Shown: positions 2,959 to 47,653 of the stretch, in pieces
Layout: every line of letters begins with the position of its first letter
Numbering within the stretch: position 1 is the first letter of the stretch
Assembly (NCBI GenBank): GCA_017545665.1
Contig: JAFWKQ010000039.1
Coordinates: 1-64,000, forward strand
Length of the DNA stretch: 64,000 nt
Direction of reading: 5' to 3'
DNA from: Atopobiaceae bacterium
GTDB lineage: Bacteria > Actinomycetota > Coriobacteriia > Coriobacteriales > Atopobiaceae
Notes under the pieces: generated by a model
The model's input: the letters and a program-made list of their open reading frames with translations, nothing else
The model's database searches: none
What the model was told of the DNA's origin: nothing
Program-made: the position numbers and the translations under genes

Positions 2959-4074
2959 CTAGTCTTCGAGTCCAACCTTGTAGCGCAGGGTACCGTTCTC
3001 CAGAGAGCCCTCGGAGGTCATGGAACGAATCATGGCGTTCGAGATCTCGTCGCCATACTCGTACGCGTTTTCGAGCGTAATGCCAGCGGCGATGAACGCG
3101 TTGCAGTCCATCTCGAGCTGTGCGCTCCGTCCGCCTTCAGGCACCGATAGCGTAATCGTCAGCTCTGGGTCCGCGAGCCCTTTTTCTCGCGCAAAGGGAA
3201 TGAGGTACTGTTCCACGATCTCCTCTACCACCATCTGGCACGCATTGGCAGTGCGCTTGCCCAAGAACTGCCGCGCGCAGAAGGTCGTGAGAGACCCCAT
3301 CATGGCGTGATAGTCGTAGTCCACGTCGCGAATCTTCCACTCCCAGCTGCGCACGCGGAAGACGAACTCGTAGGTCTCCCTCCGCTGCGGGTGCTGGAAG
3401 ATCTGCTCGGCAGGACCGGCCTCCCAGAGCTCCCCCCGATCCATGTAGAACACGCGCGAGCTCGCATCGCGCGCAAAGCGCATCTCGTGAGTCACCACGA
3501 GCATGGTAAGGCCATGCGAGGCCAAATCCTTCATAACCGAGAGGACCTCGGAGACCATGGAAGGATCCAGCGCGCTCGTGGGCTCGTCAAAGAGCAGGAT
3601 TTGGGGATTCATGGCAAGGCCGCGGGCAATGGCCACGCGCTGCTTTTGTCCGCCGGAGAGCTCGCGCGGATAGTTGAGGGCCTTGTCCTTGAGGCCCACC
3701 TGCTTGAGCAGCTTGAGCGCCTGCTCGTAGGCCTCCTGCTTTCCCATGCCCAAAAGCTTCGTGGGCCCAAGCATGATGTTCTCGGCAACGAGCAGGTGGT
3801 CGAACAGGTTGAAGCTCTGGAACACCATGCCCATCTTGCGGCGCATGGCGTCTAGGTCCACGTCTGGCGCGCACATGTCTTGTCCGTCCACCAGAATCTG
3901 GCCGCTCGTGGGCGTCTCCAGACGGTTGAGGCAACGCAGGAACGTGGACTTGCCCGTGCCGGACGGCCCGATAATGGATATGACCTCGCCGCGGTCCACG
4001 TAGGCATTTACGTCCTTGAGGGGCGTGGCGTTGGGATACTCCTTGCGGAGGTGCTTGACTTCTATGAGGCTCAT
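2959..4074 (-). CDS. polar amino acid ABC transporter ATPase with C-terminal extension (system 1)
   Basis: GlnQ-type ATPase that would power amino acid import with the membrane protein encoded just upstream. Walker A is GPSGTGKST, the signature is [17 protein letters not shown], Walker B is [13 protein letters not shown] and the switch histidine is in VVTHEM. The standard ATPase ends near residue 245. About 120 further residues follow, conserved in the two paralogues in this window, with the segment [15 protein letters not shown]. The start ATG overlaps the permease stop by one base (TAATG), so the pair is translationally coupled. The extra domain is unassigned; a degenerate GHKL-like fold is a guess. 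Confidence 0.9.
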
Positions 4075-5657
4075 TACAGCTTAACCCCCTTAATGGCGCG
4101 CGGACCCTCCTTTGGCTCCAGCTTGCGCACGACGAACTTGTTCAGCAGGAATGCCAGGAGTCGGCACAGCGCGAAGTAGATAATCGCGATGGCGATGAGC
4201 GGGAAGAACGCCTCCATGGTGCGAGAGCGAATGATATCTCCCACGCGGGTGAGGTCTTGGACCGCAATAAAGCCTACGACCGAGGTGTCCTTTACGAGGC
4301 TCACGAACTGCGCCACCAAAAGCGGCGCGAACTGGCGCGCAGCCTGCGGCAGCACCACGAGGAAGAAGGTGTCGCGGTCGCCAAAGCCCAGGGCGCGGCC
4401 CGCCTCGGTCTGCCCCGTATCCACGGCGCGTACGGCGTTCCACATGATCGATCCGCTTGTGGCGGCAAAGATGAGCGTAAAGCCAACGATGGCAACGATG
4501 ATGCCCGGTATGTCGATGCCGCCAAAGAACACGTAGTAGAGCACCATGAGCACCACGACCACGGGAAGCCCGCCCATGAGGCTTTCCAGGCAGCGGATGA
4601 GCTTGTCGGCAATGCCGCCCTCCTTCTTGCGGCGCAGCAGCACGAAGACAAACCCGATCGCAAGCCCAAGGGCGCCCGAGCACGCAGAGATGAGCAGCGT
4701 GACGCCCAGGCCTCCGAGGATGAGCTGCCAGCGGCTCTCGGTAATGAACGTGCGCTCGAAGCTCTTGGCGAGCCCCTCGAAGAACCCTTGGTTCTTGTTG
4801 CCCTCAAATCCCTGGATGCGCGCGACTATGGCCACGCCGCCATCGTAGAAGGAGTCCGTCATGTCTACCATCTGCTTGCGCTCGTCGGTAATGGAGAAGC
4901 TGTAGGCTCCAATGTCCGCCTTGCCTGACTGGATCTCCGGAATAATCGAGCCGGCGTTCGTGTACCGATATTCGATCTCGTACCCGAGATCCTTTGCGGC
5001 CATTTCCAGTATTTCGATGCAGAGGCCGACGCACCCGTTGTTCAGGGAGTAATTTACGGGCTCGTTGTCGGTAGACGTGGCCACGACGAGCGTTCCCTTG
5101 GGAGCGGGCCATCCTCGCGGGGGCATAGTCTTTGCCGCGTCGTCCGCACTGGTCCACTTTTCCCTGAGCCTGTTGAGCGTGCCATCTTTCTTGTATGCCT
5201 CCAGCCGCTCGTTGAGTTCTTGGGTATGGGGGCTTCCCTTTGGCAGCACATAGCCGTACTGGTCCTTTACGATATGCTCCGGGACAACGCCGATCCCCTC
5301 GTTCTTTCTTGCGGCCAACTCCGCTATGGGGGAGTCGGTGACAAAGGCATCGGCCTTTCCCGTAGCAAGCGCGCCAACGGCCTCGGCATTGGTGTTGAAC
5401 CGCAGCAAGTCGCTCTCCTCGATACCCGGCACATGCTGCATTATGAACTCGTCGAACATCGTTCCGCTGAGCACGGCGATCTTCTTGCCCACCAGGTCGC
5501 TGGGCTTGTTGATTTCGAGGGTCGGCGCACCTGCGGATGACGACGAGCTCGTTGCCGACTGCGCCATTGCCCTAGGGACCAGCCCCAACGCAACGAACAG
5601 CAGGGCAGCAACGACAATCACCGCAAGAATGCCTCCCCTTTTTCTGGTGTGATTCAT
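4074..5657 (-). CDS. amino acid ABC transporter fused substrate-binding/permease protein (system 1)
   Basis: Membrane protein that combines capture and translocation of a polar amino acid. After an N-terminal hydrophobic signal/anchor come sequences matching the second lobe of SBP_bac_3 ([13 protein letters not shown] to LNRLREKW). Next comes the first lobe ([16 protein letters not shown] to [11 protein letters not shown]), and then a HisM/GlnP-type permease domain with the loop [20 protein letters not shown]. The lobes are therefore in reversed order compared with ordinary binding proteins. I chose ATG 5657 because AGGGAAAGGG lies just before it; an upstream ATG at 5675 has no clear ribosome site. 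The cognate ATPase follows with a one-base overlap. Confidence 0.88.
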
Positions 5658-16056: not shown

Positions 16057-17166
16057 CTACTCCTTGATTCCAACCGAACAGCGCAGGATTCCATCTTCAA
16101 ACGAGCTGCCGTAGGCCATCCGCTCAATGATGGAGAACGAAACCTCGTTGGCCTGCTCGTCTTCAAGCGATATGCCAGCGGCGCCATATGCGCGGCAGTC
16201 CACCTCAATATTAGCGGTCTTGCCACCTTCGGCCACCGAAAGCGTGATCGAGAGATTCGGATCCCTAAGTCCGTTCCTCTCTGCGATGGGTATGAGCTGT
16301 TGCGCCACAAGCTCCTCCACCAACAGCTGACAGGCGTTGACCATGCGATCCTGAAGGAACTGACGCATGCAGAAGGACTCGAGCGATCCCGACATGGCGA
16401 AGAAGTCGAAGTCCACGTCGTGAATCTCCCACTCCCAGCTGCGCACGCGGAAAATAAAATCGTGGGTCTCCTTGCGCTTAGGATGCTCGAAGATCTGTTC
16501 GGGAGAACCCGCCTCCCATACCTCGCCACGGTCCATGTAGAACACCCGCGAGCTCACGTCGCGCGCAAAGCGCATCTCGTGGGTTACCACCAGCATGGTG
16601 AGGCCCCTCGACGCAAGGCCCTTCATCACCGAGAGAACTTCCGACACCATGGAAGGGTCCAGAGCGCTCGTGGGCTCGTCGAAGAGCAGGATGTCGGGTT
16701 CCATGGCCAAGCCGCGAGCTATGGCCACGCGCTGCTTTTGTCCGCCCGAGAGCTCGCGCGGGTAGTTGAGCGCCTTGTCCTTGAGGCCAACCTGCTTGAG
16801 CAGCTCGAGCGCACGTTCGTAGGCCTCCTGCTTCCCTATGCCCAGAAGACGCGTGGGTCCGAGCATAATATTCTCGGCTACGAGCAAGTGCTCGAACAGA
16901 TTGAAGCTCTGGAACACCATGCCCATCTTACGACGCACGAGATCGAGGTCCGCGTCCGGCGCGCACACGTCCCGCCCGTCGACCACGATCTGGCCGCTCG
17001 TGGGCGTCTCCAGGCGGTTGAGACAGCGGAGGAACGTCGACTTCCCCGTGCCAGAAGGACCAATGATGGATATGACCTCCCCACGTTCCACCTTTGCATT
17101 TACGTCCTTGAGGGGCGTAACGTTGGGATACTCCTTGCGGAGGTGCTTTACTTCTATGAGGCTCAT
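16057..17166 (-). CDS. polar amino acid ABC transporter ATPase with C-terminal extension (system 2)
   Basis: Close paralogue of the ATPase at 2959-4074, with Walker [10 protein letters not shown], signature [17 protein letters not shown] and Walker [14 protein letters not shown]. The same extra C-terminal domain follows ([16 protein letters not shown], then [15 protein letters not shown]). It starts at ATG 17166, where ATGA overlaps the stop codon of the permease gene by four bases, so the two are coupled. A longer upstream reading frame exists but runs through the permease gene. Substrate specificity cannot be read. Confidence 0.9.
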
Positions 17167-18749
17167 TGCAGATCGACCCCCTTGATCGTGCGCGGGCCGT
17201 CCTTGGGCTCGAACCTGCGCACCGCAAACCTGTTCAGCAGCCACGCCATGAGCCGGCACAGCACGAAGTAGATGACCGCTATGGCAATCAGTGGGAAGAA
17301 GGCCTCCATAGTGCGGGAGCGAATGATGTCGCCCACGCGCGTGAGGTCCTGCACCGTAATGTAGCCCACGATGGAGGTGTCCTTTACCAGGCTAACGAAC
17401 TGCCCCACGAGAAGCGGCGCGAACTGACGCGCGGCCTGTGGCAGCACCACGAGGAAGAAAGTGTCGCGGTCTCCGAATCCCAGGGCCCGCCCCGCCTCGG
17501 TCTGGCCCACGTCCACAGCCTGTATGGCGTTCCACATGATCGAGCCGCACGTCGCGCCAAACAGGAGCGTGAACGCCAGGATGGCCACGACGGCACCCGG
17601 AACGTCTATAGCCCCGAAGACCACGTAATAGAGCAGCATGAGCACCACGACCACCGGCAGGCCGCCCAAGAGGTTCTCTAGCAGACGAATGAGCTTGCTT
17701 GCAATGCCGTCCTCCTTCTTGTGACGCAGCAGCACGAAGACAAACCCAAGGCCAAGGCCTAGGACGCCCGACGACACCGAGATAATCAGCGTGACGCCCA
17801 AGCCGTCGAGGATGAGTTGCCAGCGGTTCTCAACTATGAAGGTACGTTCGAAGCTCCTGGCGAGATTCTCGAAGAATCCCCCGCTCTCGCCTGCCCCGTT
17901 TCCTTTCGTGCGTACGACCGCCACCACGCCGCCGTCGTAGTACGGCTCGGTCATGTCCATCATCTTCTTGCGCTCTTCGGTGATGGAGAAGCTGTCCGCC
18001 CCAATGTCCGACTTGCCGGACTGAACCTCGGCCAGCACCGCATTCACGTTCGTATTCCGATACTGGACATCGTATCCCAGGTCGCGCGCGGCCGTCTCCA
18101 GTATCTCGATGCACAGACCGCAGATCCTGTTGCCCACGATGTAGTTCACGGGCTCGTTGTCGGGAGATATGGCCACGGTAAGAGTCCCCTTGGGCGCCGG
18201 CCAATCCTGATCAGGCATGGTCTTCTTCGAGTCGTCAGAGCCCATCCATTTTTTCTTGAGCCTGTCGAGCGTGCCATCCTCCTTGTACGCCTTCAGCCGT
18301 TCGTTGAGCTCCTGCGTATGGGGGCTGTTCTTTGGCAATACGAAGCCGTACTGGTCTTTTTTGATTTTCTCAGGCATAACGCCAATGCCTTCGTTCTTTC
18401 CTGTGGCAAGCTGCGCAATGGGTAAATCGGATATAAAGGCATCGACCTTTCCTGCCTGAAGCGCGCCAACGCACTCGGCGTTGCTGTTGAAGTACAGAAT
18501 ATCATCCTTCGAAACGCCTTTGACATCCTCCAACACGATTTGGTCGAACACCGTTCCGGTTACGACTCCGATTTTCTTGCCCGCAAGCTCTTTAACGCTG
18601 TTGATCTCGACATCGGGCGACTCAGCCGCGCTTACCTTTTGGTCGTTGGCTTCTGCCAAGGCATTGGGTGCCAGTCCCAGCGCAATAAATAGCAAGGCTG
18701 CGGCAGCAAGCAACACAAGAACGCCGCCCTTCCTACAAACATTCCTCAT
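17163..18749 (-). CDS. amino acid ABC transporter fused substrate-binding/permease protein (system 2)
   Basis: 528-residue paralogue of the protein at 4074-5657 with the same architecture. A signal/anchor helix ([17 protein letters not shown]) is followed by the second binding lobe ([13 protein letters not shown] to LDRLKKKW). Next come the first lobe ([16 protein letters not shown] to [11 protein letters not shown]) and the permease with [30 protein letters not shown] precedes ATG 18749. The differences from copy 1 are concentrated in the binding lobes, consistent with a different amino acid substrate. The region 18750-19018 upstream holds no further gene. Confidence 0.88.
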
Positions 18750-44199: not shown

Positions 44200-44994
44200 A
44201 TGGACCTGCAAACCGCCCGTCGGCTCAACGACTTGAATACTGCCTTCTACGCCCACGCATACGCGTCGTTTGACGCCACGCGCCAGGCCCCATGGCCAGG
44301 CTGGGAGCGCGTGCACGACGCCATGCGCACGCAAGGCATGCCGGAGGGCGAACGCGAGCTTCGCGTGCTCGACCTCGCCTGCGGCAACCTGCGCTTCGCG
44401 CGTTTTTTGGCAGACCGCTACCCACGCCTGCGCGTATGGGGCGTCGACAACTGCGCGCCTCTCGCGCTCGCAAGCGTGCCACACAACTCCTGCGACGTTA
44501 GCGTACAAGACCTCGACATCACGGGCGCGTTGTTTGACAACCGCGACCTCGCGAGCGAAATCGAGGCGCCGCCGTGCGACCTGAGCGTCTGCTTTGGCTT
44601 TTTGCATCACGTGGCGATGCCCTGTCATCGCCTCCAGGTGGTTCGGGCGCTCGTGCGGCACACATGTCCGGGCGGTTTGGTTGCCGTGAGCCTGTGGCAG
44701 TTGGAAAAGAGCCCGCGCATCCTCGCGAAGGCCCAGCCGCTCGACGATCCCGGCGACTACCTGCTGGGTTGGCAAAACGACCCAGGCGCCCAGCGCTATT
44801 GTCACAGTTTTAGCGAGGACGAGGTGGACGAGCTTGCCAAGGCGAGCAGCCATGCCACCGAAATAGCCCGTTACTCCGCCGATGGCAAAAGCGGCGACCT
44901 CAACCGTTACCTTGTGCTACAAGTTCATACGGACGCCCAGCCTCATTGCAGGACAACCCAGCTGGACCCGGTCCCATTCGCACGCAAACCCTAA
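44200..44994 (+). CDS. SAM-dependent methyltransferase, Trm9-like
   Basis: 264-residue class I methyltransferase. Motif I is [15 protein letters not shown] and the acidic motif II region is [31 protein letters not shown], then [16 protein letters not shown], and later [10 protein letters not shown] and [14 protein letters not shown], recall the layout of Trm9/ALKBH8 methyltransferases that convert cm5U to mcm5U in tRNA. Divergent pairing with Elp3, which makes cm5U, supports this reading. TAGAAT lies 6 nt before the ATG with no ribosome site, again suggesting a leaderless mRNA. Its stop overlaps the stop of the convergent ABC ATPase. Confidence 0.75.
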
Positions 44995-46094
44995 CGCAGG
45001 CGGAACTGCATGATACCAGGCTCTATCTCCGTTATTTCGCGCGTATGGCCTCGTATCATCGCATACGAAAGCTCATCTCGGTACTCGGGACTCAACGGAT
45101 CGCCACCATCCAGCAGCTTGCGGAAATCCACCCTCAGCACTACGTCCACGCCGCCTTCACCAGAAAAGAGCTCCACGTGAAGATCGGGATCCTCCACGCC
45201 TCTCTTGCGAGCTTCCTCCACCAAGAGGTTGACTACGAGCTCTTCCACCAGCAACTCGCAGGAGTTTGCCGTACGAATGCCCATAAACAGATGCGCACAG
45301 TACGTGTCGAGCGACGCCATCATGCCAGGCATGTCGAATGCCAGGGAGTTGATATGGTACTCCCAGCCACGCACGCGGAATATGAAGTCGTGCGTCTCTG
45401 GCCTCTGGGGATTCTCGAAAATCTGCCTCGGCGTGCCTTCCTCCCAAATGACCCCCCGATCCATATAGAGCACGCGCGAGGAGGCCTTGCGGGCAAAGCT
45501 CATCTCATGCGTAACCACGAGCATGGTGTGCCCACGCTCGGCAAGGTCGCGCATTACAGAGAGGACTTCCGACACCATGGTGGGATCAAGCGCCGACGTG
45601 GGCTCGTCAAACAGCAGTATTTGGGGATCCATGGTAAGGCTACGCGCAATGGCCGCGCGCTGCCTCTGCCCGCCGCTCAGATCGCGCGGCCACGCATTGG
45701 CCTTGTCTTTGAGGCCAACAAGGTCAAGCAGCTCCAGAGCGCGCTCCTTGGCCTCCTGTTGACTCTTGCCCAAGAGGTCCATGGGACCCATCATGAGGTT
45801 CTCAACCACGCGACGGTGATCAAAGAGGTTGTAGCTTTGAAAAACCATGCCCATCTTGCGACGCATGGCCGGTAGGTCGGTGGACGGATCGCACATGTCA
45901 ATGCCGTCAACCATAATGTGTCCCGACGTGGGCGTCTCCAAGCGATTTATGCAGCGCAACAACGTGGACTTACCCGTGCCGGAGGGGCCGATTATGGATA
46001 TTACCTCGCCCGCATCTATGGTGGCGTTGATGTCCTCAAGGGGCACGACGTCTTTGAATTCCTTGCGAAGGTGCTGTATCTCAATAAGGCTCAT
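44991..46094 (-). CDS. polar amino acid ABC transporter ATPase with C-terminal extension (system 3)
   Basis: 367-residue paralogue of the ATPases at 2959 and 16057, more diverged. Walker A is GPSGTGKST, signature [17 protein letters not shown], and Walker [14 protein letters not shown]. The extra C-terminal domain is kept ([31 protein letters not shown]). ATG 46094 overlaps the permease stop by four bases (ATGA). Its own stop codon overlaps that of the convergent methyltransferase gene. Confidence 0.9.
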
Positions 46095-47653
46095 TGCGGC
46101 TCCTCCCCCACCTCGCGTCTGCGCGCACGCTCTAAAAGACGCGTGCCGAACTTGTTTAGGACCACGCCCAGCAGACGACAGATCACGAAATACATAAGGG
46201 CGGTAACTACGAGCGGGAAGAACGCATCCATCGTGCGGGCGCGAATGAAGTCGGTCGCTCGCGTGAGGTCTTGCACCGCAATATAGCCAACGACGGCGGT
46301 TTCCTTGACGACGGTCACATACATGCCAACAAGCCGCGGCCTGGTTTTTGCTACGGCCTGCGGAAAGAGGATTCTGGAATACACCTGGCCTGGCGTATAG
46401 CCCATGGCTATGGCCCCTTCCTCCTGGCTCTTGTCGATTCCGTCTATTGCGTCCCACAAAACGCCGCTCGCCCTTCCCGCAAACACCAGAACGAATGCAA
46501 TGATGGCGACCAGCTCGCCTGCTATGTCTATGGCGCCAAACAGCACGTAGTACAGCAGCATTATGACAACCACAATCGGAAGGCCACTCATAAGAGATTG
46601 AAAAAGGCCAATGGGCCGGGAGAGCCACTTTCCGCGGCGATAGCGCATCCTCACGAGCCAGAGCGCAAGGGGCGTCCCCACCACTGCCGTAACGATGGAG
46701 ATAGTTGCCGTAACCCCCAAACCGTCCAAGATGACCTTCCAGCGACTTTCGTCCATAAAGGTCCGTCTGAAGGAGCGCGCTATACCGCCAGCAAGGTCAA
46801 TGCCCTTTGGCTTGTTGCTTGCGCGCGTAACCAAAACGATGTTGCCGCTATAGTCTGGTATTGTCATATCAAAGCGTTGCTGGCGCTCGGGGGTCACCGT
46901 AATGTTGCCGATGCCCACGTCCGCCTTGCCGCTTTCTACGTCGCTCAGCACACTCATGAAGGGCGCGTTGTAGAACGTTGCCGTATAGCCAAGTTCGTGT
47001 GCAACCGTTTGTACGATTTCGACCTCATAGCCCACCACGGCGTTGTTGTCCTGCACGTACGCCATAGGCGCTATGGTTGCGCATGCGACGCGCAGAATGC
47101 CGTTGGGGCTGTTCTTTTCCGCTGGCGGCATGGCCTTTGTTTCGTCAGACGCAACCAACCACTTTGCGCGAAGCGTATCCATGGTGCCATCGAGGCTAAG
47201 TTCCAGCAGGCGCTCATTGAACTTAGCGGTAAGGGGACTGTTCTTATGCAAAGCAATGCCCACTTCCTCTTCTCCCAGATCACTGGACATCAGCGCCATA
47301 TCGCTGCGGCCTGCCACCGCCATGTTTGCTACCGCCTTACCTTCCACGAAGGCGTCTATCTCTTGTTTCTGCAAGGCCTCCACCATTTCGTCCACGCTTG
47401 CATAGGGGCGAATGTTCTCGGGAGATACCTCGGGCAGCTCTTTGGTCGCGATGTTCGCATATATCGAGCCGGCAATGGTGCCCACGCGCTTGCCCGCGAG
47501 CTCCTTGAGCTCTGTGTACACTGGCGCTGCATCGCCCGCTCCGCTTCGCGCGAACACAAGAGCAAAAACGACGACCAACATGCCAGCAAAGACGAGGATA
47601 ACGCCAACGCGCCAAAACGTTGCAAATCGAGCTTTGCTCTGAAGGCGCTTCAT
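46091..47653 (-). CDS. amino acid ABC transporter fused substrate-binding/permease protein (system 3)
   Basis: 520 residues with the same reversed-lobe plan as systems 1 and 2. A signal/anchor helix precedes the second binding lobe ([13 protein letters not shown] to MDTLRAKW). The first lobe ([16 protein letters not shown] to [12 protein letters not shown]) and a permease domain with the [21 protein letters not shown] loop follow. The start at ATG 47653 follows AGAGAGGATTCC; twenty more codons upstream lack a clear site. It is more distant from the other two, so the substrate probably differs. Confidence 0.87.

Follow-up and report, generated by a model that had tools for sequence, protein, structure and literature searches.

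When the two lobes of an amino acid-binding protein are encoded in the reverse of their usual order directly ahead of a permease, it must be asked whether they still make up one binding domain and, if so, how such an arrangement arose. The question is raised by three proteins (4074-5657, 17163-18749, and 46091-47653, all on the minus strand; hereafter copies 1, 2, and 3) encoded in the window, i.e., the whole stretch of 64,000 nucleotides analysed here. A preliminary description made from the sequence had read each of them as the second half of SBP_bac_3 followed by the first half and a HisM-type permease, and had suggested profile alignment of each half, structure prediction, and a survey of lobe order as checks. 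In what follows, lobe A is the first part of SBP_bac_3 and lobe B the second part, the latter taken to include the C-terminal helices, which in ordinary structures turn back onto lobe A. Comparison with Pfam, NCBIfam, and the PDB places lobe B before lobe A in all three proteins, followed by the HisM-type permease and then by a translationally coupled ATPase gene (Table 1), and the order had thus been read correctly in three of three cases.

The family assignment itself is clear, since the whole proteins match SBP_bac_3 (PF00497) with 82-93 bits against a cut-off of 26.4 (E = 4e-23, 2e-26, and 4e-26 for copies 1, 2, and 3). The parts of the profile are, nonetheless, displaced. Pfam positions 1-91, 1-95, and 7-98 match residues 190-280, 190-284, and 192-307 of copies 1, 2, and 3, respectively, whereas the second half of known binding proteins matches upstream of lobe A (GlnH 122-245 at residues 48-171 and GlnH 120-246 at residues 46-172 in two copies; LAO-BP 121-250 at residues 44-166 of one copy). 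Likewise, in 5tuj, a solved ancestral amino acid-binding protein, chain positions 11-107 correspond to residues 187-282 of copy 1 (E = 1e-11) and positions 118-233 to residues 49-168 (E = 1e-14). The BPD_transp_1 match of Pfam lies downstream of both lobes. Lobe A and lobe B each occur once per protein, and neither two complete domains nor the normal order, the two outcomes that the preliminary description had named as speaking against it, is seen in the window copies. These proteins are members of SBP_bac_3 by descent and permutants by topology, their lobes departing from the A-then-B order of the family. All three of the paralogues described earlier are indeed present in the window, although the count falls short for the genome as a whole, which contains eight full-length fused copies.

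Table 1. Features of the three importer loci (positions within the window; residues of the permease-fused proteins).
Feature	Residues	Positions	Strand	Remarks
ATPase gene, copy 1		2959..4074	minus	GlnQ-like, 371 aa; one-base overlap with permease stop codon (TAATG)
C-terminal extension of ATPase 1		2962..3354	minus	~130 aa; probably degenerate HATPase_c_2 (GHKL-like); Pfam match only in relatives
Copy 1, permease domain	294-513	4119..4778	minus	HisM/GlnP type; Pfam, 4yms_C superposition
Copy 1, lobe A	187-281	4815..5099	minus	Encoded second; ends in hinge strand 271-281; Pfam, PDB, AlphaFold2, A-B model
Copy 1, lobe B	49-171	5145..5513	minus	Encoded first after signal sequence; PDB and A-B model matches
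ATPase gene, copy 2		16057..17166	minus	Start overlaps permease stop (ATGA); extension ~16060-16446
Copy 2, permease domain		17220..17822	minus	Profile matches
Copy 2, lobe A	190-284	17898..18182	minus	Pfam, A-B model
Copy 2, lobe B	46-172	18234..18614	minus	Sequence match, A-B model
ATPase gene, copy 3		44991..46094	minus	Start overlaps permease stop (ATGA); extension ~44994-45374
Copy 3, permease domain		46121..46735	minus	Profile matches
Copy 3, lobe A	186-280	46814..47098	minus	Pfam, A-B model
Copy 3, lobe B	39-166	47156..47539	minus	Sequence match, A-B model

A model of the A-B order built from 43 ordinary binding proteins served as a control: it gave a single collinear match in each of the 43, whereas permuted proteins give two swapped matches. 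Copies 1 and 2 begin at position 93-100 of this model and end at 96-98, so that the cut falls where, in ordinary proteins, the strand leading across from lobe A into lobe B ends. The window genome also encodes proteins with the usual A-B order (e.g., C116 and L016).

An AlphaFold2 model of copy 1, built with 59 relatives, shows a single, confidently predicted bilobed domain (pLDDT mostly ≥90 over residues 50-280). Without any change of sequence order, residues 56-285 can be superposed on OpuAC (2b4m; Z 13.2, rmsd 3.9, 205 residues), a result to which the pseudo-symmetry of the lobes contributes, and the lobe A part superposes on ArgBP (4prs_A; 92 residues, 1.9 Å, 28% identity). With one of each lobe, swapped and folded into one bilobed domain, copy 1 would be a circular permutant of a type II binding protein, as judged from this predicted structure. 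The permease superposes on the amino acid importer 4yms (chain C; Z 18.4, rmsd 3.6 Å, 207 residues) and, by this fold and its BPD_transp_1 match, belongs to the PAAT/HisMQ type. In the model, the strand at 271-281 is followed by a helix at 292-306 and by transmembrane helices from 309 onwards, in keeping with the earlier proposal that the first lobe is wired straight into the permease.

Ligand-binding residues can be traced through the permutation. On the basis of HisJ and LAO, we take the conserved Arg (HisJ R77) to hold the carboxylate of the ligand and the Asp (HisJ D161) to hold its amino group. Of 60 single-module proteins, 57 retain the Arg but only 25 the Asp of lobe B. Both are present in copies 1 and 2, which are probably ordinary amino acid importers; copy 3 retains the Arg and has Gly at the D161 equivalent, and it may bind something other than standard amino acids. 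Given this substitution and the low frequency of the Asp, the binding of standard amino acids need not be common to all copies.

The ATPases of the fused clan carry an additional C-terminal domain of ~120-130 residues. The ATPases of the ordinary A-B systems in this data set, with 240 residues, lack it, as do those of two fused but divergent systems (L157 and L166). In Pfam, the best match of this extension to HATPase_c_2 (PF13581), found in the relative L169 (25.1 bits, E = 1.8e-5), falls just below the cut-off of 27.4, and the ATPases of the window give no match to this family; a search for a matching solved structure found none. On the strength of the near-threshold match in that one relative, the extension is probably a degenerate GHKL-type domain.

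Relatives of the window proteins were sought in 84,980 named species, which yielded 397, and the best 80 of these were read. The best 80 come from Coriobacteriia (Atopobiaceae, Olsenella, and others), Lachnospiraceae, Oscillospiraceae, Phascolarctobacterium, Mogibacterium, and a Riflebacteria MAG, nearly all of rumen or gut origin, so that the family extends over Coriobacteriia and gut lineages of Clostridia and Negativicutes. Every intact protein among them has the composition (BA)n-permease, with n = 1, 2, or 3, the sole exception being cut by a contig end. The surveyed order is thus invariant in the fused family, and it recurs in stand-alone proteins (see below). According to the permease tree, the number of modules has changed many times, whereas the lobe order has not. 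In an AlphaFold2 model of a tandem BABA protein, A1-B2 follows GlnBP in sequence (23-25% identity) with an rmsd of 14-15 Å, whereas B2-A2 superposes on OpuAC at 4.4 Å. Furthermore, in 29 BABA-permease (BABAT) proteins, the distances of lobes B and A correlate at 0.95 when paired as B-A and at 0.85 when swapped, and their divergences correlate at 0.89 for B1-A1 and B2-A2 vs. -0.26 for A1-B2. Since B2-A2 superposes as a domain and the two lobes diverge together module by module, B-A is the unit of inheritance and, in the model, also that of folding.

The fused form is patchy in its distribution. It occurs in three of 80 genomes of the same taxonomic order, the window's own included, and the idea that the lobe arrangement is a general trait of that order was rejected because most of these genomes lack the fused form. 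A search with a B-A profile covered 398 Bacillota genomes (one of them the sample centre) and 396 genomes of the window's phylum, with verification confined to the loci that were fetched; a permuted protein, fused or not, is present in at least 18 of the 398 and at least 7 of the 396. Various architectures occur among these systems. One 928-residue protein of the window genome (L007, G000:C114 from 18516 on) combines the permuted domain, the permease, the ATPase, and the extra domain, and similar proteins of ~1,150 residues are found in Oscillospiraceae and other clostridia (L115, L122, L132, L136, and L137). In another protein (L111, from 402 on; 1,283 residues), the order BABA-permease-BA-permease unites both importer permease halves in one chain. 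The window genome also encodes a stand-alone permuted lipoprotein without a permease (L014, G000:C18:25181-25912), a broken permuted copy that ends before the permease and is followed by an intact ATPase gene (L012, G000:C114:28884-29504), and a fused-clan permease whose binding domain has been lost and whose gene comes immediately after one for an invertase-like glycoside hydrolase (L009, G000:C98:9954-10697). On plasmid pSRC1 of Selenomonas ruminantium, a divergent permuted binding protein (L147, WP_014431151.1) is separate from its permease and extended ATPase; perhaps it is a secondary split of the fused form.

Stand-alone permuted proteins, mostly lipoproteins encoded beside ordinary permeases, form several groups (L145/L153-L156, L158, L161/L162/L164, L033/L181-L184, L169, L171, and L179/L180). 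Their cut points differ, and each is nearly exactly complementary: ~97/98 in L033 and L181-L183, 108/108 in the L145 group, and 128/129 in the L161 group (L161, L162, and L164), where the cut falls within lobe B, past the first strand-helix unit of that lobe, and thus at a point different from that of all the others. The B-A protein L145 shares 61% identity in lobe A and 41% in lobe B with L057, which has the ordinary A-B order. Placing all permuted binding domains in one clade was rejected (p = 1e-12; 8e-6 without long branches; 6e-31 with the permease added), and the combined tree of binding domain and permease needs five order changes, with five forced by well-supported branches. Uniting the fused clan with each other lineage in turn was also rejected on the combined data (p from 9e-73 to 7e-4). 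On the binding domain alone, its union with L145 or L158 gives non-significant values (p = 0.14 and 0.56), whereas adding the permease lowers these to p <0.001 on the assumption that both genes share one history. The reversed order thus has more than one origin, and about five origins are likely; besides the fused clan, it arose independently in at least two, and probably four, other lineages, which consist of stand-alone lipoproteins.

As for the fused proteins themselves, a single clade of their permeases is not rejected (p = 0.12), and the combined tree gives the fused clan as its sister a binding protein of ordinary A-B order whose permease is encoded separately (support 100). This places permutation and fusion within that lineage and not inside GlnPQ-like tandems; hence, descent from fused A-B-A-B permeases, which was also considered, is not favoured. 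The permutation itself probably began with a tandem duplication of the binding domain, after which the first lobe A and the last lobe B were lost, leaving B-A. Tandem A-B genes commonly adjoin one another (e.g., L165, L167, and L176). Moreover, the fused permuted protein L166 (G384:C3) contains a relic of a second lobe B start (~23 residues) between lobe A and the permease, which fits an origin by duplication and deletion but may instead record a later BABAT-to-BAT deletion and not the original event.

Several other explanations of the reversed order have to be weighed. In the tandem forms, a normal A-B domain might be inserted within an outer permuted pair, B-[A-B]-A, as the collinear match of the ordinary A-B model to A1-B2 would suggest (129-151 bits in L098 and L139). 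Such nesting seems improbable, since AlphaFold2 parts A1 from B2 by a disordered link (residues 249-254), the fit of A1-B2 to GlnBP has the high rmsd given above, co-divergence favours B1A1 and B2A2, and the idea is inapplicable to the single-module window copies. Alternatively, lobes B and A might pair with those of the second permease in the dimer; two B-A segments would come to lie close to each other in a dimeric transporter, and constructs of ribose-binding protein provide known cases of domain-swapped halves (PMC10601554). Nonetheless, complementation between chains is quite improbable given that AlphaFold2 folds a single chain into one bilobed domain with high confidence, that stand-alone permuted lipoproteins exist without fusion to a permease, and that odd numbers of BA modules occur.

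It is also conceivable that the proteins are remnants of a GlnPQ-like A-B-A-B-permease whose outer lobes were lost, leaving B1 and A2 as non-cognate fragments without a working site. Loss of outer lobes is a plausible route, and the B1-A2 part of a normal tandem (A-B-A-B-T in Enterococcus; GlnPQ, 6h30) would look locally alike. However, degenerate fragments are hardly expected to form a large family with eight copies in one genome, to conserve the ligand Arg so widely, or to duplicate as tandem BA modules with cognate co-divergence, and the sister of the permease is associated with a separate A-B protein and not with a fused tandem, which makes this explanation very improbable. An artefact of assembly or a frameshift might be suspected because the draft genome consists of 134 contigs, but the chance of this is practically nil: intact frames of 520-530 codons in eight paralogues and the identical order in dozens of independent assemblies and isolates (e.g., Olsenella intestinalis KCTC 25379) already refute it.

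Circular permutation is therefore the best-supported reading, ahead of two broken or two complete domains, as judged from the single copy of each lobe, the AlphaFold2 model, the family-wide order, the co-divergence of BA modules, and the complementary cuts of the stand-alone permutants. The preliminary proposal of a permuted or rearranged binding protein is borne out by the same evidence; neither the wide and recurrent occurrence of the order nor the accompanying extension of the ATPase had been noticed there. Thus, the window proteins are very probably subunits of type I ABC amino acid importers, whose extracellular binding domain derives from an SBP_bac_3 (cluster F) protein by natural circular permutation and is fused to the permease. 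In such a protein, the two lobes would fold into the usual Venus-flytrap domain, with the old N- and C-termini joined by a ~20-residue linker and the new termini at the first hinge crossing, so that the strand normally crossing from lobe A to lobe B would tether the domain to the first membrane helix. By analogy with GlnPQ and OpuA, the permease would homodimerise and carry two or more binding domains per transporter, and closure of the domain around an amino acid would lead to docking and the start of transport. The importer would thus be of the GlnPQ/OpuA type, with the hinge strand, and not the C-terminal helices, as the point from which the tether departs, and this exit from the hinge would be its functional novelty. 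OpuABC differs from the window proteins in that an anchoring helix at the opposite side of the chain links its binding domain to the permease. A further idea, which we consider doubtful, is that selection has repeatedly favoured permutation at the first hinge crossing in binding proteins tethered to the membrane; in these, the hinge strand would serve as the tether and lobe closure would be transmitted mechanically to the first membrane helix of the permease, a mode of coupling absent from ordinary binding proteins.

Most natural circular permutations have been inferred from comparisons of distant families, whereas here close homologues differ, as the identities of L145 and L057 illustrate. 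Whole importer systems can be compared before and after permutation, and the material includes several independent events that differ in cut point, which makes it directly testable how permutations arise and whether topology matters for docking to ABC importers. It should also be noted for annotation that matches to 'substrate-binding protein/permease' profiles hide the B-A order and that, in tandem forms, an apparently normal A-B domain spans two modules. Permuted binding proteins and permease-fused binding proteins were each known before; their combination and its recurrence appear to be new within the open-access literature, in which no description of permuted amino acid-binding proteins fused to permeases, or of their recurrence, was found (subscription journals lay outside the scope of the search).

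Among known systems, GlnPQ has tandem binding domains of the SBP_bac_3 family fused to its permease (PMC8025302, PDB 6h30) and resembles the window systems in Pfam family, in one or more binding modules N-terminal to the permease, and in a separate ATPase. However, GlnP and its Enterococcus relative are A-B-A-B-permeases, whereas all window-type modules are B-A; despite the N-terminal fusion, the window proteins thus fall outside the GlnPQ type, and their permease lies on a different branch and their ATPase has the extra domain. OpuA of Lactococcus, in which the binding domain is covalently linked to the permease (PMC11065425), likewise has a tethered domain on a short linker on each importer half, but its ligand is glycine betaine. 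The glycine betaine-binding proteins OpuAC and ProX were identified as a circular permutation pair by CPSARST (PMC2395249), which is a permutation within type II binding proteins, and OpuAC can be superposed on the B-A module without reordering of the chain; nonetheless, they belong to PF04069, bind compatible solutes, represent a structural link between distant families, and show no BA-permease fusion. Finally, TpMglB-2 (Tp0684) of Treponema is a 'Type Ic' circularly permuted glucose-binding lipoprotein (PMC4990184), i.e., a natural, membrane-tethered permutant that is functional in ligand binding and closure. It differs in its Type I sugar-binding fold, its stand-alone form, its restriction to one family, and its cut inside the N lobe with a fourth crossing, and the window proteins, which match type II amino acid and betaine binders by sequence and fold, are not of the 'Type Ic' kind; its authors suggested a link between permutation and membrane tethering (PMC4990184).
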